From: Oscillospiraceae bacterium | GTDB taxonomy: Bacteria > Bacillota > Clostridia > Oscillospirales > Oscillospiraceae | DNA length: 37,965 nt | NCBI GenBank assembly: GCA_009784725.1 | Contig: WQXS01000019.1 | Location: 1-37,965 of the forward strand | Reading direction: 5' to 3' | In this document: positions 4,269-16,334 of the stretch, piece after piece | Position numbering within the stretch: the stretch's first letter is position 1 | Layout of the letters: each line of letters opens with the position of its first letter | The notes under the pieces: model-generated | Database searches by the model: none | The model's input: the letters and a program-made list of their open reading frames with translations, nothing else | Told to the model about the DNA's origin: nothing | Position numbers and translations under genes: made by a program

Positions 4269-6227
4269 ATGGCACAGTTCAAAGTAATCAGCGAGTTTAA
4301 CCCCGCAGGCGGACAACCCGAAGCAATTGAAGCACTCGCAAACGGGCTTGGTTTGGGTTTTGACGAGCAGACCTTGCTCGGTGTAACAGGCTCGGGCAAA
4401 ACATATACAATGGCAAAAATAATTGAAAAAGTACAAAGACCAACCCTTGTGCTTGCTCATAACAAAGCCCTTGCGGCACAGCTATGCAGCGAGTTCAGAG
4501 AGTTTTTTCCCGAAAACTCGGTTGAGTTTTTTGTAAGCTATTATGATTATTACCAACCCGAGGCATATATGCCGACCACAGATACGTACATTGAAAAGGA
4601 CAGCTCAATAAACGATGAAATTGAGCGTTTGCGCCACTCGGCTACCTCTGCACTTTTCGAACGGCGTGATGTTATTGTAATCTCATCCGTCAGCTGCATC
4701 TACGGTCTTGGTGACCCTATTGATTACAGCAGTATGGTCATTTCATTACGGCAAGGCGCACATTTAAGCCGTGATGAGCTTCTCGCCAAGCTTGTTGAAA
4801 TACGTTATGAACGTAACGATATTGCATTTGAAAGAAATGCCTTTCGTGTAAGGGGAGATACGGTTGAAATATATCCCACCTATGCTCATGATTATGCGGT
4901 GCGGGTTGAATTTTTCGGCGACGAAATAGAACGTATCAGCGAAATTCATGTTGTAACGGGGTCAGCTACAAGAGAGCTTTCACACGCTGCAATCTACCCT
5001 GCATCACATTACGTTACAACAGAAGAAAAAATCCAAAACGCAATTGCATATATAAAAAACGAAATGAATGAACGCCTTGATTATTTTGAAGCAAACAATA
5101 AACTGGTTGAAGCTCAAAGACTTGGGCAGCGTACAATGTATGATGTCGAAATGCTGACAGAGCTCGGTTATTGCAATGGTATAGAAAACTACTCCCGTAT
5201 AATCACCGGAAGAGAGCCGGGCAGTGCGCCTATGACATTGCTTGACTATTTTCCGAAGGATTTTCTTATGTTTATTGATGAATGCCATGTTACGATTCCG
5301 CAGGTCCGCGCAATGTATGCAGGTGACAGGTCCCGCAAGGACAACCTCATCAATTACGGTTTTCGCCTGCCTTCAGCATATGACAACAGACCGCTCAATT
5401 TTGATGAGTTTAACGAGCGGTTAAATCAGGTTATCTATGTATCTGCAACACCGGGTGAATATGAACGTTCACGCTCAAGTCAGGTTGTAGAGCAGGTAAT
5501 ACGTCCGACAGGACTTCTTGATCCTGAGATTTCCGTCCGCCCGGTCGAAGGTCAGATTGATGACCTTATTTCCGAAATAAATATCCGCTCTGCAAATAAT
5601 GAGCGTGTACTGATAACAACGCTTACAAAAAAAATGGCAGAAGACTTAACCGCATTTCTAAAAAGCGCAGGCATAAAAGTCCGATACCTGCACCATGATA
5701 TAACTACAACCGAGCGAATGGAAATAATCCGCGACCTGCGCCTCGGAGAGTTTGATGTTCTGGTAGGAATAAATCTGCTTCGTGAGGGTCTCGACTTGCC
5801 CGAGGTTTCCCTTGTTGCAATACTGGATGCGGATAAGGAAGGCTTCCTGAGAAGTGCAACATCGCTGATTCAGACAATAGGGCGCGCAGCAAGAAATGTT
5901 TCCGGTCTTGTAATTATGTATGCGGATAGAGTCACCCCTTCAATGAGTATTGCAATTGAGGAAACAGACATCCGCAGAGATAAACAAAAAGCATTTAATG
6001 AAGCCAACGGAATCGTACCGAAAACCATCATTAAAAATGTAAGAGACCTGCTTGAAATCTCCAAGCGTGACTCCACGGCAGAAGTTGACGGCGTCAAGCT
6101 TACCAAGCGAGAGCGTGATGAAGAAGTAAGAAGGCTCGAAAAAGAAATGGCCGCTGCTGCGAAGCTGCTCGAATTCGAGTATGCAGCTGCACTGCGCGAC
6201 CGTATTATTGAACTTAAAGGGAATTAA
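4269..6227 (+). CDS. uvrB: excinuclease ABC subunit B
   Basis: DNA damage-verifying helicase-like subunit of UvrABC nucleotide excision repair, loaded by UvrA and recruiting UvrC. It has 652 residues, the normal length. Walker A GVTGSGKT is at residues 38-45, the beta-hairpin region [12 protein letters not shown] at about 94-105, the DEAD-like [11 protein letters not shown] near 335, and helicase motif [11 protein letters not shown] near 535. A C-terminal UVR domain ([14 protein letters not shown]) would contact UvrC. ATG at 4269 follows GAGGTG. The stop codon overlaps the convergent DUF368 gene by four bases. In many Bacillota uvrB and uvrA are adjacent; here uvrA is about 22 kb away. Confidence 0.97.
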
Positions 6228-7186
6228 TCGGCTTCTCCGGATATACTTTCATCTGATATACCGGAAGAACCGTCCCCTTGACTTATTGCGTTAGAACTGC
6301 CTTCCGGAGAAACTGCCACTTCTTCGCCGGATTCGGTTCTGTTCATTATTCTCCCGAGTACCATAAACATAATGGAAATACAAAAACCGGCTGCAAGCAT
6401 TATTCCGCCAAGTGTCCATGTGAAATTTTCTTCCGAGAGAAAATGGCTTTGGTATGCTATGCCAATTAATGAGCCGAACTGGAAACCAAGAACCGTTGTG
6501 TTTGATATCCCCGGATGTTTATCAAACACATATTTTATTCCTTTAGCCGTACACATCAAACCGATTACAGTACATAAAATAAATAATCCGATTGGTACTA
6601 TAAATGAAAAATTCATTCGCATCAGTGCTTCAGCGGCATATAACAGCGGACCGTATACTCCGAGTACAACAAGCACCGTCGAAAGACTCATTCCCGGTAT
6701 AAATGCAGTTATTCCTGCCGCAAAACCTCCCAACGCAAGCCCCCGCCAATCCGCCATTGAAGCAGTATCACCGGACATAAGTCCTTCTCCCGAAGCGAAG
6801 ACACTGACAGTAACAGCAATGGCACAAGCAATTGCGGCACCGATAAGATATATCGGTTTAAATCCGATTTTTCTGACTTCGATAAAAACAAGCGGAATAC
6901 TTCCTGCAATTAATCCTATGAAAAGCAGGTAAACCGCCTTTTCATAGGAGTCAAAAAGCTGCCTGAAAGCAAGTACAAAGACCACCGCACTTACCAGTAC
7001 TCCGACTCCGAGAGGAATACAATAAAAAATGTTTTCCTTAAGCTTTTTAAATGGATTTGATATTATCCGCACAAGCTCATGATAAATACCCATTGCGATT
7101 GCAACAAGACTTCCGCTGAAGCCCGGTGCAAAAACACTTAGACCTAAAAAAAATCCGCACAAAATTCTATATAAAAACTTTTTCAT
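6224..7186 (-). CDS. DUF368 family polytopic membrane protein
   Basis: The protein has 320 residues with about eight hydrophobic segments. The family-typical start is [25 protein letters not shown], and a second copy of the theme, [29 protein letters not shown], lies near residue 155. This internal duplication resembles undecaprenyl-phosphate carriers. DUF368 proteins have been implicated in recycling C55-P across the membrane; that role is family knowledge, not visible here. The last 40 residues are a soluble Ser/Gly/Glu-rich tail that contains the dispersed 18-mer at 6266-6283. The gene follows hisS after 17 bases and ends in a four-base convergent overlap with uvrB. Confidence 0.85.
6266..6283 (-). 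repeat. 18-bp dispersed repeat in the DUF368 tail
   Basis: The minus strand reads AGTCAAGGGGACGGTTCT, an exact 18-base match to 21858-21875 on the plus strand inside dusB. Relative to the host gene the orientation is opposite in the two cases. Here it encodes SQGDGS in the hydrophilic C-terminal tail. Confidence 0.7.
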
Positions 7187-7203: not shown

Positions 7204-8553
7204 TTATTTTTCTTTAACAGGCTCACCCTTACGTTGGGTTTTTATTTTATCCAGAATTCCCGCTGTCAGGATTCCGTATGATGCTATTGTCTGCTCTCCT
7301 GTTGCCATATCCTTAACTTTAATCAAACCCTTGCTTATCTCGTCTTCGCCAAGAAAAACAACAAAAGGTATTCCAAGCTTATCTGCATAAGATATTTTAT
7401 TCTTAAATTTCTTGTTTTCGGAATATATCTGCACTCTTAATCCCGACTCACGCATTGTTGTTGCAAGCTTAACAGCATGTGAACATTCTTCTGTCATAGG
7501 AATAATCAAAACATCGGCAGGTGCCGTTAAAAGCGAATCATTTAACAACCCTTGCTCCTGCAATATATAAAATAGACGTGTAAGACCTATTGACAGCCCG
7601 ACACCCGGCATTTTTCTGTCGGTATAGTGCTCAGCCAGATTATCATATCTGCCGCCCGAGCATATTGCTCCCACCTCGGGATAATCCGTAAGATATGTTT
7701 CGTAAACCGTTCCCGTATAATAATCAAGACCTCGGGCAATTGACAGGTCAATTTTGTAATGGGTTTCAGGCACACCTAAATCCGAAAGATACTTTCGCAG
7801 GGTTATTATTTCCTCTGTCCCTTGGTCAAAGGTTTCATTTTTACCCTTGTATAAATCCAAAGCTCCAAAAGGTTCTGTTTTGTTGGTTATGAATCCAAGA
7901 AGCCCGTCAACCTGTGTTTGCGTCAGGCCTAAAGCATCAATCAAAGTTTCCGATAATTTTTTCTCTCCGATTTTATCAAGCTTATCAACAACCCGCATTA
8001 CTTCGGTTGATAACTCATTTATTCCGAGAATTTCAAAAAACCCGTTTAGTATCTTCCGGTTATTTATCTTAATAATAAATCTTTTCAGTCCAAGTGATGT
8101 TAAGCTTTTATATATAACCCCCGGTATTTCCGCCTCGTTCATTAAGTCCAGGCTTCCATCACCGATTATATCTATATCCGCTTGGTAAAACTCCCGAAAC
8201 CGCCCTCTCTGAGCACGCTCGCCGCGGTAAACCTTACCAATTTCATATCTGCGAAGCGGAAATGTTAAATCGTTGTAATATAATGCTGCATACTTTGCCA
8301 AAGATGCCGTAAGCTCATAACGGACAGCAAGGTCGTTATCTCCCTTGCGTAAAGTATATATTTGCTTCTCTGTTTCACCGCCGCCTTTTGCAAGCAGAAT
8401 TTCCGACGCTTCCATTAAAGGAGTGTCCAGGGGTGTAAATCCATATAATGAAAACGACTTGCGAAGGTTTAGCATCATCGTATCAAAACACACTTGATCC
8501 GGGGGTAATAACTCCATAAACCCGGAAAGAGTGCGCGGTTTTATTTTGTTCAT
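7204..8553 (-). CDS. hisS: histidyl-tRNA synthetase
   Basis: Class II synthetase charging tRNA-His. It has 449 residues, slightly longer than the usual 420-430. Motif 1 region and TPLMEASEIL are near the N-terminus, motif 2 YEIGKVYRGERAQRGRFREFYQADID near residue 105, the histidine-specific RGLDYYTGTVYE near residue 270, and motif 3 GVGLSIGLTRL near residue 320. A C-terminal anticodon-binding domain (ADVLIIPMTEE onward) follows. ATG at 8551-8553 follows AGAGGA. The gene lies directly after the MgsA-like gene, across a 13-bp triple repeat. hisS and aspS are often adjacent in Bacillota; here they are about 4 kb apart, with pyrE, uvrB and DUF368 between them. Confidence 0.96.
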   Translation of the reverse strand: MNKIKPRTLSGFMELLPPDQVCFDTMMLNLRKSFSLYGFTPLDTPLMEASEILLAKGGGETEKQIYTLRKGDNDLAVRYELTASLAKYAALYYNDLTFPLRRYEIGKVYRGERAQRGRFREFYQADIDIIGDGSLDLMNEAEIPGVIYKSLTSLGLKRFIIKINNRKILNGFFEILGINELSTEVMRVVDKLDKIGEKKLSETLIDALGLTQTQVDGLLGFITNKTEPFGALDLYKGKNETFDQGTEEIITLRKYLSDLGVPETHYKIDLSIARGLDYYTGTVYETYLTDYPEVGAICSGGRYDNLAEHYTDRKMPGVGLSIGLTRLFYILQEQGLLNDSLLTAPADVLIIPMTEECSHAVKLATTMRESGLRVQIYSENKKFKNKISYADKLGIPFVVFLGEDEISKGLIKVKDMATGEQTIASYGILTAGILDKIKTQRKGEPVKEK

Positions 8554-8567
8554 AAAAATTCCTCTAT

Positions 8568-8606
8568 GTCTTTGGATTAAGTCTTTGGATTAAGTCTTCG
8601 GATTAA
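8568..8606 (-). repeat. three tandem 13-bp repeats across the mgsA-like stop codon
   Basis: The unit (plus strand GTCTTTGGATTAA) occurs at 8568-8580, 8581-8593 and, with one change, 8594-8606. The copy at 8594-8606 encodes the last residues of the MgsA-like protein and the copy at 8581-8593 supplies its stop codon. Because 13 is not a multiple of three, gain or loss of a copy shifts the frame. Confidence 0.8.
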
Positions 8607-8994
8607 CAATATCCCGCCAGTCAAGGTCACCCCTGCTGAGCCCGTGTATGAGTACCTCGGCGGTTGCAACATTTGAAGCAAAGGGTATATTATGCTGGTC
8701 ACAGAGTCTTGCTATATCGGTTACGCTGCCGTGGTATTCCTCAATAAGCTGCGGGTCGCAGAAAAATAAAACCATATCAAGCTCGTTATATGCTATTCTC
8801 GAACCTATCTGCTGACTGCCGCCCTGATTGCAGGACATATATAAAGTAATCGGAAGTCCTGTTGCTTCTGTAATAAGGCGGCCTGTTGTATTTGTTGCGC
8901 ATAATGAATGTTTTGCCAAAATTCCGCAATAAGCAATACAAAACTGCACCATTAATTCTTTTCTTCTGTCATGAGCAAGAAGAGCTATATTCAA
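8590..8994 (-). CDS. methylglyoxal synthase-like protein, catalytic residues replaced
   Basis: The 134 residues align end to end with MgsA (IALLAHD at the start, ATNTTG, AEVLIHGLSRGDLDWRDIVNP at the end). MgsA turns dihydroxyacetone phosphate into methylglyoxal. Against the E. coli enzyme, His19 and Asp20 are kept (His8, Asp9) and so is Asp91 (Asp80), but Asp71, the catalytic base in GGDQQ, is Ser60 (GGSQQ). In an ungapped alignment from that DP to RLCD, His98 is Tyr87 and Asp101 is Ser90. Gly46 and Gly66 are Asn35 and Cys55. The fold is probably intact, so a non-catalytic binding or regulatory role is plausible, as in the MGS-like domains of CarB and PurH. It lies between the MinD-like gene and hisS. 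Confidence 0.85.
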   Translation of the reverse strand: MNIALLAHDRRKELMVQFCIAYCGILAKHSLCATNTTGRLITEATGLPITLYMSCNQGGSQQIGSRIAYNELDMVLFFCDPQLIEEYHGSVTDIARLCDQHNIPFASNVATAEVLIHGLSRGDLDWRDIVNPKT

Positions 8995-9019
8995 AATCGG
9001 TCACATCCTATCTCTTGTA

Positions 9020-9754
9020 TTACCGGAGCGGTACATCGTTTCCGGCAATACGGCGTGCGGTGTCCAGAAATTCATATGCGGAAAATCTTTTTTTGTACAT
9101 TATAAGCGGTGTATTATCATGCAGAGCAGCAAAAATGTATTTATCTTCGGGTATCAGTCCAACAAGCTGTGCTCCTACCGTATCAATTATATCATCAATG
9201 TTGGTTTTGATTTTTTTGAGATTTTTCGGCAGCAATCTGTTCACAATCATTCGAATGTTATCGACACCAAGTTCCCGGACTGCATTTGCCGTCCTGTTTG
9301 CATCTCTTATTGCGGCAAAATCGCCTGTTGTCACAATTATTGACATATCCGCATCAGTATGTGCCAAACGAAATCCCGGACCGATTCCGGCAGGACAATC
9401 TATTAAGCAATAGTCGAACTCACGGCGTATATCTGAAAACATTGCCTTGAAATTTGAAATATCAATATCCTCGGGGACTTTTCCGGTTGGTGCCGAGAGG
9501 AAAAAGAGGTTTTGGATTTTCGGTGATTCACTACAGGCAGCCGTCAGATCCAAACGCCCGCTTACAACATCCATAAAATCCATGACTGCAAAATCTGTCA
9601 TACACAAAGCAAGATCAAGGTTTTTAAGCTGCTCGTCAAAATCAATACATAGTGTTTTATGTCCGAGCACAGCAAGGCAGGAAGAAAGAGCAGCTGTAAC
9701 CGTTGTTTTACCGGTACCGCCTTTTCCCGAAGCCACAGCTATAATCTTACCCAT
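9020..9754 (-). CDS. MinD/ParA-like ATPase
   Basis: The protein has 244 residues, starting at ATG 9752-9754, which has GGGAG six bases upstream; a TTG ten codons earlier lacks a site. The deviant Walker A KGGTGKTT (residues about 10-17), DFDEQLKNLDLAL and the Walker B-like DYCLIDCPAGIG identify the MinD branch. MinD positions the division septum by membrane-bound oscillation or polar recruitment. Unlike typical MinD, the C-terminus (RRIAGNDVPLR) does not look like the amphipathic membrane-targeting helix, and neither minC nor minE is adjacent. A MinD next to an mgsA-type gene is seen in other Clostridia. It could instead be a MinD-like protein with another partner. Confidence 0.8.
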   Translation of the reverse strand: MGKIIAVASGKGGTGKTTVTAALSSCLAVLGHKTLCIDFDEQLKNLDLALCMTDFAVMDFMDVVSGRLDLTAACSESPKIQNLFFLSAPTGKVPEDIDISNFKAMFSDIRREFDYCLIDCPAGIGPGFRLAHTDADMSIIVTTGDFAAIRDANRTANAVRELGVDNIRMIVNRLLPKNLKKIKTNIDDIIDTVGAQLVGLIPEDKYIFAALHDNTPLIMYKKRFSAYEFLDTARRIAGNDVPLR

Positions 9755-9825
9755 CTTTGCCTCCCGTCGGTTTCGTCCGAACAATATGGTATTATATACA
9801 AAATATAACTGCTTTTCAAATTAAT

Positions 9826-11445
9826 TTATCTGTCCCATTTATTTGAAAGTGAATCTACTTGATCGGCAAACTTTGCAAGGTCTTTATTTGTTCCGCCTTT
9901 ATTTCTCGATATAACATCAACCAGCCTTAAGCCGGCAAGCATAAGTCTTTGAAAAACAGGAGAGTCCCTGCGCTCCTGCCTGTCAATATCACTGCGTTTT
10001 AAGAGGTCCCGTCCTTCAAATTCCGCTTCGAATGTCAACAAATCATATATTGAAGTATACTTCGGCGCAATTGCTTTAAAGTCTTCTTCTATCAGCTTGA
10101 GTGTAAACCCGTTACAGATTTCTTCTTCTCCGTGGACAACAAATACACATTCGGGTTTCTTTATAAAGCTTCCTATCCAATGCAGCAGCTCTCCTTTATC
10201 GGCATGTGAGCTCATGCTTCGGAAATTATGTATTTGGCATCGAATTGCAATTTCTTCACCAAAGAGAGAAACACTTGATTCTATCCCGTCAACAATTATT
10301 CGCCCGAGAGTACCAAGAGCCTGAAATCCCGTAAATACCACAGCACATTCCTGCCGCCAGAGATTATGCTTGAGATGGTGACGGATTCTGCCTGCATCAC
10401 ACATTCCGCTCGATGATATTATTACCTTTGGTGTTTTGTCATCATTTAATCTTTTTGAATCTTCTGATGTTTCTATTATGACCAAACCGTCAAACGCAAG
10501 AGGTTGCACTCCCGATTCAATCAATGCAAGGGTTTCGTCGTTAAGATAGTCTGTAAGCTCTTCCGAATACAGCTTTGTTGCCGCCTTAGCCAGCGGACTG
10601 TCGAGGTAAACCGGGAAATCCGGAACAGAGCGTACAAGCCCTTTCTCTTTAATCTCTCTTATATGATATAGCAAATCCTGTGTTCTGCCTATCGCAAATG
10701 ACGGGCATATAACGTTCCCGCCTTTTGCCAGTGTTGCCTCTATTACTTTTGCAAGCTCGGTAACAGTATCAAATGAATGGGCATGGCTTCTGTCGCCATA
10801 GGTTGACTCCATAACAACGATATCGGCTTCGTCAACAAACTCGGGCTCTCTGATTATCGGATGACCGGGTGTTCCGATATCACCCGAGAAAACGATTTTC
10901 TTTCTTACAAGCCCTTGTTCGGTATTATCCTCCGTCAGCCACATCTCAACATATGCAGAACCCAGTAAATGTCCTGCATCCGTAAATAGAAACGATACTG
11001 CCTCATCAATCTCTATTTTTTCTCCGTATCGGCAGGGAATCAATAACGGAAATACACGAAGCGCATCTTCCATGGTATATAGGGGTTCTGTTGCGGCTGC
11101 ACCTGCACGGCGTTTTTTTCTGCTTGACCAAAGAGCTTCAAGCTCTTGAATATGCGCACTGTCTCTGAGCATTATATCAAGCAGCTTGCATGTCGGCTCC
11201 GTGGCAAAAATGCCGCCCTTAAAACCGTTTTTGACAAGCAACGGAAGTCTTCCCGAGTGGTCAATATGTGCATGGGTAATAATTACATAATCAATTTCTC
11301 CGGGATGAAACGGAAACGACTGACCGAACCCATTGCTTCCCCCTTGCTGCAAACCGCAGTCAACAAGAACCTTTTTGCCGTCCGCTTCAACGCAAAAGCA
11401 ACTCCCCGTAACCTCTCTTGTTGCTCCATAAAAGCTTATCCTCAT
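9826..11445 (-). CDS. beta-CASP metallo-beta-lactamase-fold hydrolase (RNA-processing type)
   Basis: The protein has 539 residues. The N-terminal metallo-beta-lactamase fold has HAHIDHSG at residues 58-65, DAGHLLGSA and the SGDIG zinc-binding motifs. A beta-CASP domain (CPSFAIGRTQDLLY, YLDSPLA) follows, then an RMMBL-type region with SMSSHADKGELL and VVHGEEE. This arrangement matches the CPSF73/YSH1-like RNA hydrolases, which act on RNA ends. The bacterial members are poorly characterised, and they are distinct from RNase J. A charged extension of about 70 residues follows. The gene is 23 bases after the hybrid kinase gene and probably cotranscribed with it. Confidence 0.88.
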   Translation of the reverse strand: MRISFYGATREVTGSCFCVEADGKKVLVDCGLQQGGSNGFGQSFPFHPGEIDYVIITHAHIDHSGRLPLLVKNGFKGGIFATEPTCKLLDIMLRDSAHIQELEALWSSRKKRRAGAAATEPLYTMEDALRVFPLLIPCRYGEKIEIDEAVSFLFTDAGHLLGSAYVEMWLTEDNTEQGLVRKKIVFSGDIGTPGHPIIREPEFVDEADIVVMESTYGDRSHAHSFDTVTELAKVIEATLAKGGNVICPSFAIGRTQDLLYHIREIKEKGLVRSVPDFPVYLDSPLAKAATKLYSEELTDYLNDETLALIESGVQPLAFDGLVIIETSEDSKRLNDDKTPKVIISSSGMCDAGRIRHHLKHNLWRQECAVVFTGFQALGTLGRIIVDGIESSVSLFGEEIAIRCQIHNFRSMSSHADKGELLHWIGSFIKKPECVFVVHGEEEICNGFTLKLIEEDFKAIAPKYTSIYDLLTFEAEFEGRDLLKRSDIDRQERRDSPVFQRLMLAGLRLVDVISRNKGGTNKDLAKFADQVDSLSNKWDR

Positions 11446-11468: not shown

Positions 11469-14400
11469 TTATTTTATATCGCTGAGTAATTTGTCAATAA
11501 GTTCAATTGCTTCGTCATACTCCACTATCAGAATGTGTTTTGAGATATCCCTTGCAACCGCCATTACATTATCCTCGAGTGCCGAACGCAGCAGATTGTC
11601 AATGCTTTGATTTGTTACATCAATATCGAAGTTCTCCAGTGCCGTCTTCAGCTGACCGAGCAGCTTTTTTAAATCCGCGGCATCAATTTTCTTAACATCC
11701 TTGTCGCTTGCGAGCTTCTGTTTGAGCAGCTCATCGTTAATTTTGCCGAGCAGCTTTTCAAATGCCTTTAAAAACGGAACATTATTATCAGAAACAAAAT
11801 CCATATCCTCATCTATTGCCGCATGCTCAAGATTTGCAGCCATCTCCGAGACTTTATTCGCACCGATATTTGCAGAAGCACTTTTTAAGGCATGAACATT
11901 TGTTATATACATAGGAATATTTTTTGACTTAAGATACTCAGCGATGGTATTCAGCCGCTCAAGCCCGTCACTGTGGAAAGTCGCAAGAGTTTCAAGATAG
12001 TATTCAACCGTTCCGCCTGTCAGTGCAATTCCTTTTTCTACGTCCACTCCTTCGATTGCAAACTTCGAGCCTTCTTTTGCCGGTTTTATTTTTACAACTC
12101 CCGGATTTTTTCTTTTCTCTTTTGGTATAAACTTTTCAAGAACAACAGCAAGCTTGCTTGTGTCAATCGGTTTTGACATAAATTCACTAAATCCGCTCTC
12201 CATAAACATTTCTTTCATGCCCGAAACGGCATTTGCCGTTAATGCGACAATAGGAACATTAGCATAATACGGATTATCTTCTCCCATCGCTCTTATCCGT
12301 TTTGTAGTTTCCACACCGTCTATACCGGGCATCCTGTGGTCCATAAATACAATGTCATACTGTTTTGATTTGATTGCTTCAATTGCTTCAAATCCGTTAT
12401 TGCTTAAATCAACCGACATTTCATAAGGCAGAAGCAACCCGTTTGCGACTTTGAGATTCGTGTTTATATCGTCGACAACAAGTACACTTGCATCGGGAGC
12501 GGAAAATCTGACTGTATTTTTTTCGTTATAGCTATACGTGTAACTGTCACTATCGCTCACACGATTGAGAACGCTTGCTATTGAAATTGAATGTGTCGGC
12601 ATAGAAAGTGAGTTCCAGTTTCCTGCAGGAATCGAGTCTCCGAATTCCGTTAAGAAAACGATTTGTGAGCTTTTGCTTGACTCAAGAACAGGCTCTTTAT
12701 TTCGTTCAAACAGCAGATATGAAACAAATATAAAGGAAAAGCCGTGCTTTATGCGTTCAAGAAACTTATCTTCACTTGTAACAAGCTCATAACTTACACC
12801 AAGGTTATCAAGCGACTGGGCAATTGAGTCTGCATAAATTGCTCTGCGTTCAAAGAGTAATACAGTTTTTTCGCTTGCGTTCTCTACTTTTGCAATCTTG
12901 TCGGGTTTGCAGATTTCCTGAGGCAGTTTTATCGTAAATATACTTCCCTCTCCATAAACCGATTCGACAGAGATGCTGCCGTTCATTGCCAAAAGTATAT
13001 TTCTTGAAATCGCAAGACCGAGTCCGGTTCCTTCGATTTCTTTGTTGTGCTCTTCTCCGGGCTGAAAATAATCCTGGAACAGATTGTCTATATCTTCTTG
13101 TTTTATGCCTCTGCCGCTGTCCACAATATCGACTGTTAGGTTTACTTTATTTGTTTCCTCATCTATCTTACCTGCAAGTGTAAATGAAACAAAACCCGTT
13201 TCGGTGAATTTTACGGCATTACCTAAAATATTAATCAGAACCTGACGTATTCTGGACTCGTCACCGATAAGTGCATCGGGAATATTACTGTCGATATTAA
13301 CAACAAATCTCAGCTGTGAATCAAAGGCTTTAATCCTGATAATGCTTATTACATCATTAATAAGCGAAGACAATGAATATTCTTCCAAAGTAATCTGCAT
13401 TGCTCCCGACTCGATTTTGGAAAAGTCTAAAATATCATTAATTATGGAAAGAAGATTCGTTCCCGCTTGTCTTACGGTAACAATATGATCCCGGACGGCA
13501 TCCGATACATCCTCACGCAGTGCAAGCTCTGCCATTCCTATGATTGCATTCATCGGTGTGCGGATTTCATGACTCATTTTTGCAAGGAAGATTGATTTTG
13601 TCTGGCTCGCAAGCTCAGCCTCTTCACGTGCTTTGCGCCGTTCATATGCGGTTATTGCCAAAGCCATAAGGTCTGATAAGGAGGATGCAAAGTTCTGCTC
13701 TTCCGCCATCCATTCACGGCTGTCCGTATACGTATCGGATTTCATCTGTTCAATACTTAATGTACCTGCCAGATTGCCGTCAATAAATATAGGCGCTTCA
13801 AGTGATGCACACATATCCTTGTTTGATTCTTGAATATAAGGAAGAACTTTTTTGATATCCGAAACGGAGTTCATTGCAACAAGTCTTTCCGACCTGAGCA
13901 GTTTTGCATATGTATGCCGGATTGAAAGATCATAAACTTCATTAGATTCATCAATACCTTTTAGTGCACTGAACCGTGTTTGGCTGATTAAAGAATTTTC
14001 ATCTGCCGATAAACGCCAGAACCCTACACTGCTTGCATTCATAGCCTCACATGCCGCTTGCGTGATAACCCGTGCAGCAGCCTTTAAGTCACCTGCCGAA
14101 ATTGTCGGTGATTTTGTAATGCTTGCAAGAACCTCCCTCAGAGCGCTTGCATATTCGTATCTTCTTGCGGTAAGTATTTCAGCTTCGAGTGTTCTTTTTG
14201 CAATAAGCGCATGCCTGTTAATTGCGCTTGCCATCATGAGGCTGACCGAACGCAGGATTGAAATTTCTTCTTTCGTAAAGTCACGTTCGTTATGACAATC
14301 GTCAACACTGAAGAATCCCCAGAATTCTTCATCTAAAAATAACGGGATGACAGCAATGGACATTACATCATACGGCTTGACAAATTCTTGTTCTACAACC

Positions 14401-16334
14401 GACATTTCGGAAAGCGGACCGCTTATGCTTTCGCCTTTAATAAGCTTCTCATGCCATCTTGGCCCTTCGTCAAAATCAAGCTTATAGTCTTTAAACATTT
14501 CCTTTTTTTCAGCACCGATTTCATTATACCAGTTATATGAGCAAACATGATACAGCTTGCCGTCGATCGCTTCATTTTTCCATATGTGTACCCGGTCAAC
14601 ATTATTTGCCCGTCCTACAAGCTCCATGCTCGCCATCAGGTTTTCATCGACATCTTCACCGTCTTTAGTTGTTAAAAGCATTGCAGCTGCCTGATTGACC
14701 GCCATAAGAAGCTTATCTCTTTTACTGAGGCCGTCCATCATTTTATTATGCTCGCGCAGATCTCTTGTATACGCAATTATAACATCACCGCTGTCATAAC
14801 TTGCTCTTATTATAGTAACCTCCGTCGGCATTTCAGAGCCGTCGGCGGGAATGCGGTGCATATACTCAAAAATTGCATGGCCTTCTTCAAGTGCAAGATT
14901 ATAATAATGTCCGGCTTTTTCATTAGAGCGCTCTCCGTCAGGCTGAAGCTCCGGCGAGCATGTTTCAAGGAAGCTTGCAAACAGTTCCTTTTTATCCTTT
15001 AGCCCGAAAAGCCTGACCGCTGCTTCGTTACAGTCAACTAAATTTAAGTCTTTATCCCACAAAATAGTACATAGCGGCGATGAATCAAGCATCAGCATTG
15101 TACGTTTATTTGCTTCGTCTATCTCTGCTTCCAGGCGGTGGCGGTCTGTATTTTCCAATGCTACCGAAATAAAGTTTGCGAGGATTGCAATGAAGTTTTG
15201 CTCTTTTTCACCCCATTCGCGTTTTTCGGGATATGCCTGACAACGGTGCTGTTCAACTCTCAGTATTCCGTAAAGCTCTCCTCCGACTCTGACCGGTGCG
15301 TCCATATATGCACAAAGTGTTGGGTTATAGTCACGTGTCGAGCTTGATAGCGCATTCGGAACAGAGATATCGTCTACGACAAAAATCTGTTTTGTATTAA
15401 TCAGCTTTAAGTATGTTGAATTTCCCTTAAGATTGATTTTGCTTTGCCCAAGTACCTTCTGCGACCTTGTATCATATGTATTTACCCTTGTAAGCGTAGA
15501 CATGTCATCTGAAAATTTCATAACAACGATACTTTGTACATCAATCGCTTTACAGCCTTCTTCTGAAATTAAATCCGCAGCATCATCAAAAACTCCCGCA
15601 TATAAAATCGGCGAGCTCGTAATTGCTGTCATAGTATCCCTGAAATGTGAAGTGTGCAGGTTCTGAACATATGTTGTATATGAAAGGTACACAAACGGGA
15701 TAATTGTGAAAAAGTATCCTATCGGCGAAAGGTCGTAAGCTGCTCCGAATAATCCGAAAATATAGAACAGATTCAAAATGTAGGGGATTATTATTGCTAT
15801 TCCCGTAATAATCAAAAACGGGTAGCGACGCAGGTTTTTTGTAATATATGTTACAAGCTCTATATAGAAATATACAATTAATGACGAAAGAACGACATAA
15901 TGAAGCCAGAAGATAAACCCTGTCTGAGGAATTATACGGGGAGCTACGGGATAATCCATATTCATGAAAAACAATCCGTGAAGGTTGGTAGTAAGCAACA
16001 GAACTATGGTAAATGCCGGCATGAAAACCAAAAATGCCCGCATTGATTTGGAAACAACCAGTTTAGATTCTATATAATTCAGGATAAACCAAAATGTTAA
16101 AAACGTAACTATGATTGAAAGAGATATTTTCGCCGGATATGTAAATGCAAAATAAGCGGGAGCTGCAAAAATATTGGCAGTAGAAACAGCAATCCATGCC
16201 AACGCCGCAACACACATTGGATAAAAGCCCCTCATACGGCGCTCATTTGCAACTATCGGCCGCAGCTTATAGAGAAAAATGCTCGCTGTAGGAATAATTG
16301 CTATTGAAATGTAAAAAAGTATTGTATCTCCCAT
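11469..16334 (-). CDS. giant hybrid sensor histidine kinase (7TM–GAF–PAS–GAF–GAF–HisKA–HATPase–REC–REC–HPt)
   Basis: The protein has 1621 residues. About seven membrane helices fill the first 230 residues (7TM histidine-kinase type sensor). These are followed by a GAF-like region (about 245-400), PAS (about 405-530), two further GAF-like regions (about 545-900), and HisKA with the phospho-acceptor His922 in MSHEIRTPMNAIIG. HATPase follows, with an N box ending NAVKF and GTGLGLAIS. A degenerate receiver lacking a clear phospho-Asp comes next, then an intact receiver (VLVVDD, Asp1332 in FMDHRMPG), then an HPt domain with His1481 in VHALKSASANIGA. About 90 helical residues end the protein. It is a complete intramolecular phosphorelay; the output partner is not in the window. 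It lies 33 bases after dnaE. Confidence 0.93.
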   Translation of the reverse strand: MGDTILFYISIAIIPTASIFLYKLRPIVANERRMRGFYPMCVAALAWIAVSTANIFAAPAYFAFTYPAKISLSIIVTFLTFWFILNYIESKLVVSKSMRAFLVFMPAFTIVLLLTTNLHGLFFMNMDYPVAPRIIPQTGFIFWLHYVVLSSLIVYFYIELVTYITKNLRRYPFLIITGIAIIIPYILNLFYIFGLFGAAYDLSPIGYFFTIIPFVYLSYTTYVQNLHTSHFRDTMTAITSSPILYAGVFDDAADLISEEGCKAIDVQSIVVMKFSDDMSTLTRVNTYDTRSQKVLGQSKINLKGNSTYLKLINTKQIFVVDDISVPNALSSSTRDYNPTLCAYMDAPVRVGGELYGILRVEQHRCQAYPEKREWGEKEQNFIAILANFISVALENTDRHRLEAEIDEANKRTMLMLDSSPLCTILWDKDLNLVDCNEAAVRLFGLKDKKELFASFLETCSPELQPDGERSNEKAGHYYNLALEEGHAIFEYMHRIPADGSEMPTEVTIIRASYDSGDVIIAYTRDLREHNKMMDGLSKRDKLLMAVNQAAAMLLTTKDGEDVDENLMASMELVGRANNVDRVHIWKNEAIDGKLYHVCSYNWYNEIGAEKKEMFKDYKLDFDEGPRWHEKLIKGESISGPLSEMSVVEQEFVKPYDVMSIAVIPLFLDEEFWGFFSVDDCHNERDFTKEEISILRSVSLMMASAINRHALIAKRTLEAEILTARRYEYASALREVLASITKSPTISAGDLKAAARVITQAACEAMNASSVGFWRLSADENSLISQTRFSALKGIDESNEVYDLSIRHTYAKLLRSERLVAMNSVSDIKKVLPYIQESNKDMCASLEAPIFIDGNLAGTLSIEQMKSDTYTDSREWMAEEQNFASSLSDLMALAITAYERRKAREEAELASQTKSIFLAKMSHEIRTPMNAIIGMAELALREDVSDAVRDHIVTVRQAGTNLLSIINDILDFSKIESGAMQITLEEYSLSSLINDVISIIRIKAFDSQLRFVVNIDSNIPDALIGDESRIRQVLINILGNAVKFTETGFVSFTLAGKIDEETNKVNLTVDIVDSGRGIKQEDIDNLFQDYFQPGEEHNKEIEGTGLGLAISRNILLAMNGSISVESVYGEGSIFTIKLPQEICKPDKIAKVENASEKTVLLFERRAIYADSIAQSLDNLGVSYELVTSEDKFLERIKHGFSFIFVSYLLFERNKEPVLESSKSSQIVFLTEFGDSIPAGNWNSLSMPTHSISIASVLNRVSDSDSYTYSYNEKNTVRFSAPDASVLVVDDINTNLKVANGLLLPYEMSVDLSNNGFEAIEAIKSKQYDIVFMDHRMPGIDGVETTKRIRAMGEDNPYYANVPIVALTANAVSGMKEMFMESGFSEFMSKPIDTSKLAVVLEKFIPKEKRKNPGVVKIKPAKEGSKFAIEGVDVEKGIALTGGTVEYYLETLATFHSDGLERLNTIAEYLKSKNIPMYITNVHALKSASANIGANKVSEMAANLEHAAIDEDMDFVSDNNVPFLKAFEKLLGKINDELLKQKLASDKDVKKIDAADLKKLLGQLKTALENFDIDVTNQSIDNLLRSALEDNVMAVARDISKHILIVEYDEAIELIDKLLSDIK

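Follow-up and report, generated by a model that had tools for sequence, protein, structure and literature searches.

Is a protein that resembles methylglyoxal synthase (MgsA) and has lost the catalytic residues of that enzyme a gene on its way out, or has it been kept for another use? The question is raised by a 37,965-nucleotide stretch of an Oscillospiraceae genome (contig WQXS01000019.1; this whole stretch is called the window), where a short gene next to a MinD-like ATPase encodes such a protein, here designated MgsA*. As far as sequence allows, MgsA* is very probably a conserved pseudoenzyme throughout the sampled family. The gene and the parts of it discussed below are as follows.

8590..8994, minus strand: MgsA*, a probable MgsA-like pseudoenzyme of 134 amino acids plus stop, TTG start, open frame
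8599..8628, minus strand: codons of the C-terminal block, residues 123-132 (DLDWRDIVNP), placed from alignments
8725..8754, minus strand: codons of a variable loop, residues 81-90, where active MgsA has His98 and Asp101; the predicted model has a mean pLDDT of 70 here

An MgsA homologue with altered catalytic positions

MgsA* belongs to the MgsA sequence family and fold, and lacks the catalytic Asp71, His98 and Asp101. It scores 37.1 bits against Pfam PF02142 (cut-off 24.1) and 123.8 bits against NCBIfam NF003559 (cut-off 84), and a sequence search of the PDB matches it to Bacillus subtilis MgsA (6f2c) with an E value of 9.7e-34. Against the TIGR00160 equivalog it reaches 117.2 bits, under the cut-off of 146.9; an intact clostridial MgsA (L217) scores 190.9. 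With L217 it aligns without a gap at 69% identity, and in that alignment (Escherichia coli number = window number + 11) Ser60 stands at Asp71, Tyr87 at His98 and Ser90 at Asp101, with Asn35 at Gly46 and Cys55 at Gly66. The first-pass annotation had listed these five replacements in an intact frame, and they are real. Retained are His19, Asp20, Lys23, Thr45, Thr47, Thr48, Gly49, Ser65 and Asp91, a set that holds all six phosphate-binding residues (K23, T45, T47, T48, G49 and S65). Judged from the alignments, one half of the active site, responsible for the chemistry on dihydroxyacetone phosphate (DHAP) (Asp71, Gly66 and the His98-Asp101 loop), has been lost; the fold and the C-terminal block have been kept, as has most of the other half, which holds phosphate (Lys23, Thr45, Thr47, Thr48, Gly49). 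That block, DLDWRDIVNP, is common to the intact MinD-linked MgsA of other orders.

The same genome has a second, intact mgsA (G000:C1:38189-38539; L002:1432-1929) with GGDQQ and PHDTD motifs, which was located at G000:C1:38189 by the genome search that the first-pass annotation had proposed. This second type, in which the DLDWRDIVNP block was not seen, is 40% identical to MgsA* and falls in a distant clade, separated by a starred branch that is long (0.59) and has a support of 100. The idea that MgsA* is a duplicate of it is ruled out by that identity, by the distant clade and by the place of MgsA* inside the clade of the clostridial locus type. A strict DNA pattern for the second-type motif was found in 10 of 250 family genomes, and in nine once L050, which is not an mgsA by translation, is set aside; more than one MgsA match at an E value of 1e-6 occurs in only 14 of the 250. 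Because both counts are so low, most of the family appears to have no recognised active MgsA.

Distribution of the loss and signs of selection

Relatives of MgsA* are found at an E value of 1e-6 or better in 238 of 250 genomes of the family (in G123 as a contig-end fragment only) and in 143 of 147 genomes of the order, and at 1e-5 in 74 of 118 genomes of the class. Within the genus, 18 of 19 genomes give matches at 1e-3, G001 only via fragments of the second type. The family (f1) and the order are taken to be Oscillospiraceae and Oscillospirales; f1 is read in this way because named Flavonifractor, Pseudoflavonifractor, Evtepia and Oscillibacter rows share one starred clade of 112 rows with all 77 f1 rows. 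The residue counts refer to 117 distinct own-order rows, of which 77, the window included, are from the family. These are the top-scoring loci of each search with 20 deep ones chosen by hand, and so not a random sample; identical sequences and matches with a score below 120 were excluded. Other orders are represented by 40 hand-chosen places (39 distinct), and named relatives by the best 80 of 595 stretches confirmed in a contig scan (73 distinct).

The full Asp71/His98/Asp101 triad is present in five of the 117 own-order rows, distributed over f16 (3 of 3 rows), f14 (1 of 4) and f2 (1 of 3). Among the 77 family rows neither the triad nor His98 occurs at all; Asp71 is found in 11 and Asp101 in 25. 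For the first-pass annotation, close relatives with Asp/His/Asp, together with relaxed selection on this gene, would have spoken against a retained pseudoenzyme; none of the sampled family rows has these three residues. That annotation also asked whether the three changes are fixed in a clade. Within the genus two of them are, since Tyr at 98 and Ser at 101 occur in all 16 distinct sequences; position 71 varies (Ser in nine, Asp in three, Ala in three, Asn in one), and the three genus rows with Asp there have it at 71 alone. A change private to the window genome, or an assembly error, is ruled out, as the same changes recur across the family. In other orders the triad is intact in 22 of 39 rows, a count that becomes 19 of 36 once the three rows of the second type are set aside.

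A FastTree tree of 240 rows and 119 columns places MgsA*, by sequence, inside a clade of MgsA encoded in active form by other Clostridia. Since the lost rows are surrounded by intact ones in this tree, the natural interpretation is that the ancestor was active. The minimum number of changes between intact and lost states is seven on a tree that is poorly resolved, with 103 of 235 inner branches open. Catalytic loss extends across the sampled family and through much of its order, where it accompanies the absence of MinC and MinE and of the membrane tail of MinD, and it recurs elsewhere. Catalytic residues have been lost in several members from other clostridial orders (L236, L239, L241, L242, L246, L247, L249, L250 and L253), and one genome, G459, has three MgsA copies (L240, L241 and L242), none with the full triad.

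The frame is open in the window, 115 of the 117 own-order rows, that of the window among them, have ATG, TTG or GTG as their aligned first codon, and there are no internal stops among the listed matches of the genus and family searches. Of 131 columns, 39 are conserved at 95% or more in the family, some of them within the blocks MVQFCIAY, RIAYNEID and RGDLDWR. The catalytic positions stand at the other end of the scale: ranked by variability, E99 is 1, H98 is 3, P100 is 4, D71 is 10 and D101 is 13. The same five columns are invariant in 30 intact homologues, for D71, H98 and D101 by the criterion of selection, for E99 and P100 not. Asp71 is replaced in 66 of the 77 rows, by many different residues. 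The phosphate-side residues are conserved at 87-99% while G66 and D71 of the same pocket vary, and H19, D20 and D91 are kept in 92-96%. The ratio of nonsynonymous to synonymous substitution rates (dN/dS) has a median of 0.058, a value that is weak alone, coming from 5 usable pairs of 136 in the genus with the other 131 saturated or out of range. Over all pairs the median dN is 0.117 for MgsA*, about a third of the 0.342 of the adjacent MinD. This is the pattern of a protein in which selection no longer maintains the chemistry but still maintains the fold and other features. The earlier suggestion of a retained pseudoenzyme and not a decaying gene is supported by the presence in nearly all order genomes, the low dN/dS, the near-invariant columns and the freedom of the catalytic positions.

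This has a consequence for annotation. The equivalog model NF003559 (methylglyoxal synthase) accepts the window protein and nine of nine other lost members, and TIGR00160 rejects all ten. Because NF003559 accepts proteins that have lost the triad, automatic annotation is expected to call them enzymes, and methylglyoxal production read from annotation is likely overstated for Oscillospirales. Oscillospirales are abundant gut bacteria. Among the open-licence matches listed in a literature search, judged by title and start of abstract, there was no report of a conserved dead MgsA beside MinD.

The locus and its MinD

The MgsA* gene is followed by hisS and preceded on the same strand by the MinD-like gene that the first-pass annotation had named as its neighbour.

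7204..8553, minus strand: hisS, downstream of MgsA*
8995..9019, minus strand: gap of 25 nucleotides from the stop codon of the minD-like gene to the start codon of MgsA*, containing a ribosome-binding stretch that resembles AGGATG
9020..9784, minus strand: MinD-like ATPase that retains the Walker A motif SGKGGTGKTT and lacks the C-terminal amphipathic helix for membrane targeting

The short gap suggests that the minD-like gene and MgsA* form one operon. MinD lies directly upstream in 105 of the 117 own-order loci and further up in three. Of the nine with none upstream, G390 and G276 have MinD nearby, G045 has an intermediate match (7.8e-19) and the other six have no clear MinD. Among loci that span at least 5 kb, hisS lies downstream in 52 of 69 named ones and in 13 of 20 from the window's own order. 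Many other Clostridia have a locus that reads, from sequence with examples checked against Pfam, PBP2, MinC, MinD, MinE, in some RodA/FtsW, and then MgsA. Where MinD is not upstream, a PBP2 frame ends 20-287 nucleotides before MgsA in 15 of 16 hand-picked loci, which were taken from 33 named or other-order loci of this kind mostly for a PBP2 seen nearby. The triad is lost in 13 of these 15 and intact in L141 and L225. Because PBP2 is directly upstream in 15 of the 16, it seems to outlast MinD as a neighbour in those lineages, and MinD would be a common but dispensable partner. Ten loci (L116, L122, L125, L128, L129, L132, L133, L135, L136 and L143) combine a lost triad with the lack, at the locus, of a minD between PBP2 and mgsA.

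In the window the place directly upstream of minD, occupied by PBP2 in many relatives, is taken by a beta-CASP/RMMBL gene of the metallo-beta-lactamase fold (9826-11445). Beyond it lies a hybrid histidine kinase of 1621 amino acids (11469-16334) with 7TM, GAF, PAS, receiver and Hpt domains. Beside hisS, at 6224-7186, is an undecaprenyl phosphate translocase-like protein (PF04018), possibly a further cell-wall gene.

The window MinD, for which alignment makes ATG at 9754 the likelier start, scores 206 bits against the bacterial MinD model TIGR01968, just under the cut-off of 212.9, and its predicted structure matches MinD of Pseudomonas aeruginosa, Aquifex and E. coli in Foldseek with a TM score of about 0.9. 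A strong MinD match (E value of 1e-38 or better in a profile search) is present in 136 of 147 order genomes. The deviant Walker A motif KGG[TV]GK[TS] is found in 106 of 108 own-order MinD rows, the window included. The tail is at most seven residues long in 96 of the 108, against at least 10 in 23 of 25 rows elsewhere; the 11 own-order rows with a tail of at least 10 look basic or polar by eye. An excerpt of PMC13246001 describes a B. subtilis MinD defective in membrane binding, with ATPase activity under detection, and because of this the tail-less MinD would likely, by analogy, be regulated in another way.

The MinE and MinC_C models find nothing at cut-off in the 147 order genomes (the N-terminal domain of MinC was not searched for); as a positive control, the same models detect clostridial MinE and MinC. 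Under cut-off there are MinE matches in three genomes and MinC_C matches in seven, the window's own genome included, in open reading frames (ORFs) of 380-546 amino acids. The MinC_C matches, in ORFs of 481-546 amino acids, may be FapA-like beta-solenoids; clostridial MinC also matches FapA weakly. MinE is present in 60 of the 118 class genomes, five of which belong to the order and have none. Among class rows, MinE is in the genome of 15 of 19 with an intact triad and 6 of 17 with a lost one (Fisher p 0.017, uncorrected for kinship), so that a coupling of triad loss to MinE loss is only suggestive.

Possible functions and known systems

What might a protein of this kind do? The role of phosphate or metabolite sensor put forward in the first-pass annotation is plausible, since most of the pocket half that holds phosphate has been retained. 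MgsA* would be a small, non-catalytic ligand-binding regulator or adaptor, oligomeric if it is like MgsA. The old pocket would bind inorganic phosphate or a triose phosphate without turnover, and the ligand state would be relayed to neighbouring morphogenesis proteins, that is, MinD where present and otherwise the PBP2-side machinery. In bacteria that lack MinC, MinE and a MinD with a membrane tail, MgsA* could in this way couple glycolytic state to division or to the synthesis of the wall. As the best of the mechanisms considered, a sensor of phosphate or triose phosphate at a pared-down morphogenesis locus is given an even chance. A more far-reaching version is doubtful: a rebuilt Min system of Oscillospirales that has lost MinC, MinE and the MinD anchor, and in which the former enzyme, as such a sensor, would control a soluble MinD ATPase and, via MinD or directly, the PBP2 elongation machinery. 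If true, metabolism would here feed directly into the shape or division of the cell.

Several observations weigh against the sensor. S65 is kept in only 61 of the 77 family rows, and all six phosphate residues, S65 included, in 50. The G46 position is mostly Asn in the family, and some deep rows of the order show erosion on the phosphate side. Retention of H19, D20, K23 and T45-G49 could be structural only. Lost MgsA stands beside a complete minCDE in three loci of other orders (L239, L246 and L249). Triad loss and MinD-tail loss are strongly associated by rows (Fisher 4.6e-10), with one starred independent pair only, and five order rows (in f16, f14 and f2) have an intact triad despite a short MinD tail, so that the two losses are separable. 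MgsA* is kept in six genomes without a clear MinD (G226, G055, G034, G032, G342 and G264), two of them less than 90% complete. These have weak, paralogue-like MinD matches at most; in the profile search G264 (2.1e-32) and G342 (2.6e-25) are at the level of the MinD paralogue in the window's own genome. Conversely, of the order genomes without MgsA, G286 and G395 retain MinD, and G273 and G287 do not. Each gene thus occurs without the other, therefore neither strictly needs the other, and strict MinD dependence is ruled out.

Other roles have to be set beside the sensor. A pure protein-protein adaptor, a structural partner of MinD or the PBP2-side proteins in which pocket residues only hold the fold and bind no ligand, is possible and on balance unlikely. 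It would suit the directly adjacent MinD at most loci, the near-invariant columns within the three blocks, a MinD left without known partners now that no MinC or MinE exceeds cut-off, and the five of five tested family genomes without MgsA that also have no clear MinD (G026, G073, G110, G111 and G254), a count to be read with the caution that adjacent genes may drop out of a draft assembly together. It sits badly with a phosphate side that is kept while G66 and D71 of the same pocket vary, and with the six genomes that retain MgsA* where no MinD is clear. A further alternative is a protein that still acts as an enzyme on a phosphorylated substrate, with chemistry that is residual or has changed. 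Such an enzyme is improbable, even if H19, D20 and D91 are well kept, Asp71 persists in 11 rows, near relatives L003 and L005 included, and His98 is described as not critical in an excerpt of PMC7843640. Asp71 is otherwise replaced by varied residues, and few columns vary as much as positions 98-100; a shared new chemistry would be expected to leave something conserved at these sites.

Control of carbon flux through HPr- or Crh-like binding, or a dead subunit mixed with intact MgsA, is very improbable. Crh binds and inhibits B. subtilis MgsA according to excerpts of PMC12291648 and PMC10714963, which counts for it, but so few family genomes have two MgsA matches or an intact second-type motif that mixed oligomers cannot be general. 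That the gene is a decaying relic on its way out is scarcely credible. The catalytic residues are gone, and a match is missing from 12 of the 250 family genomes and from 4 of the 147 in the order, in many cases draft assemblies, but the open frames, low dN/dS and near-invariant columns already contradict decay. The phosphate or triose-phosphate sensor, if it holds, offers a candidate route by which glycolysis is read out by the wall and division machinery, and the order poses a testable question, namely the role of a MinD without membrane and MinC.

Three known systems invite comparison. MinCDE and MinCD/DivIVA systems share with this locus a MinD-type ATPase, here the neighbour of MgsA*; unlike them, the order has no MinC or MinE over cut-off and its MinD has mostly lost the membrane tail. 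The effector-binding methylglyoxal synthase (MGS) domains of carbamoyl phosphate synthetase (CPSase) also have the MGS fold without the methylglyoxal synthase triad. Those domains (1ce8 with inosine monophosphate, human CPS1 5dou, and 2yvq) are fused and 15-20% identical, whereas MgsA* is free-standing and far closer to an MgsA with an intact active site. From MgsA itself (EC 4.2.3.3) it differs in the absence of Asp71, His98, Asp101 and Gly66, variable in the family, and in its score under the TIGR00160 cut-off. The predicted model of MgsA* nevertheless superposes on B. subtilis MgsA 6f2c with a root-mean-square deviation of 1.2 Å over 119-121 residues at 50% identity, and with clostridial MgsA it shares most of the phosphate-binding residues and the type of locus.
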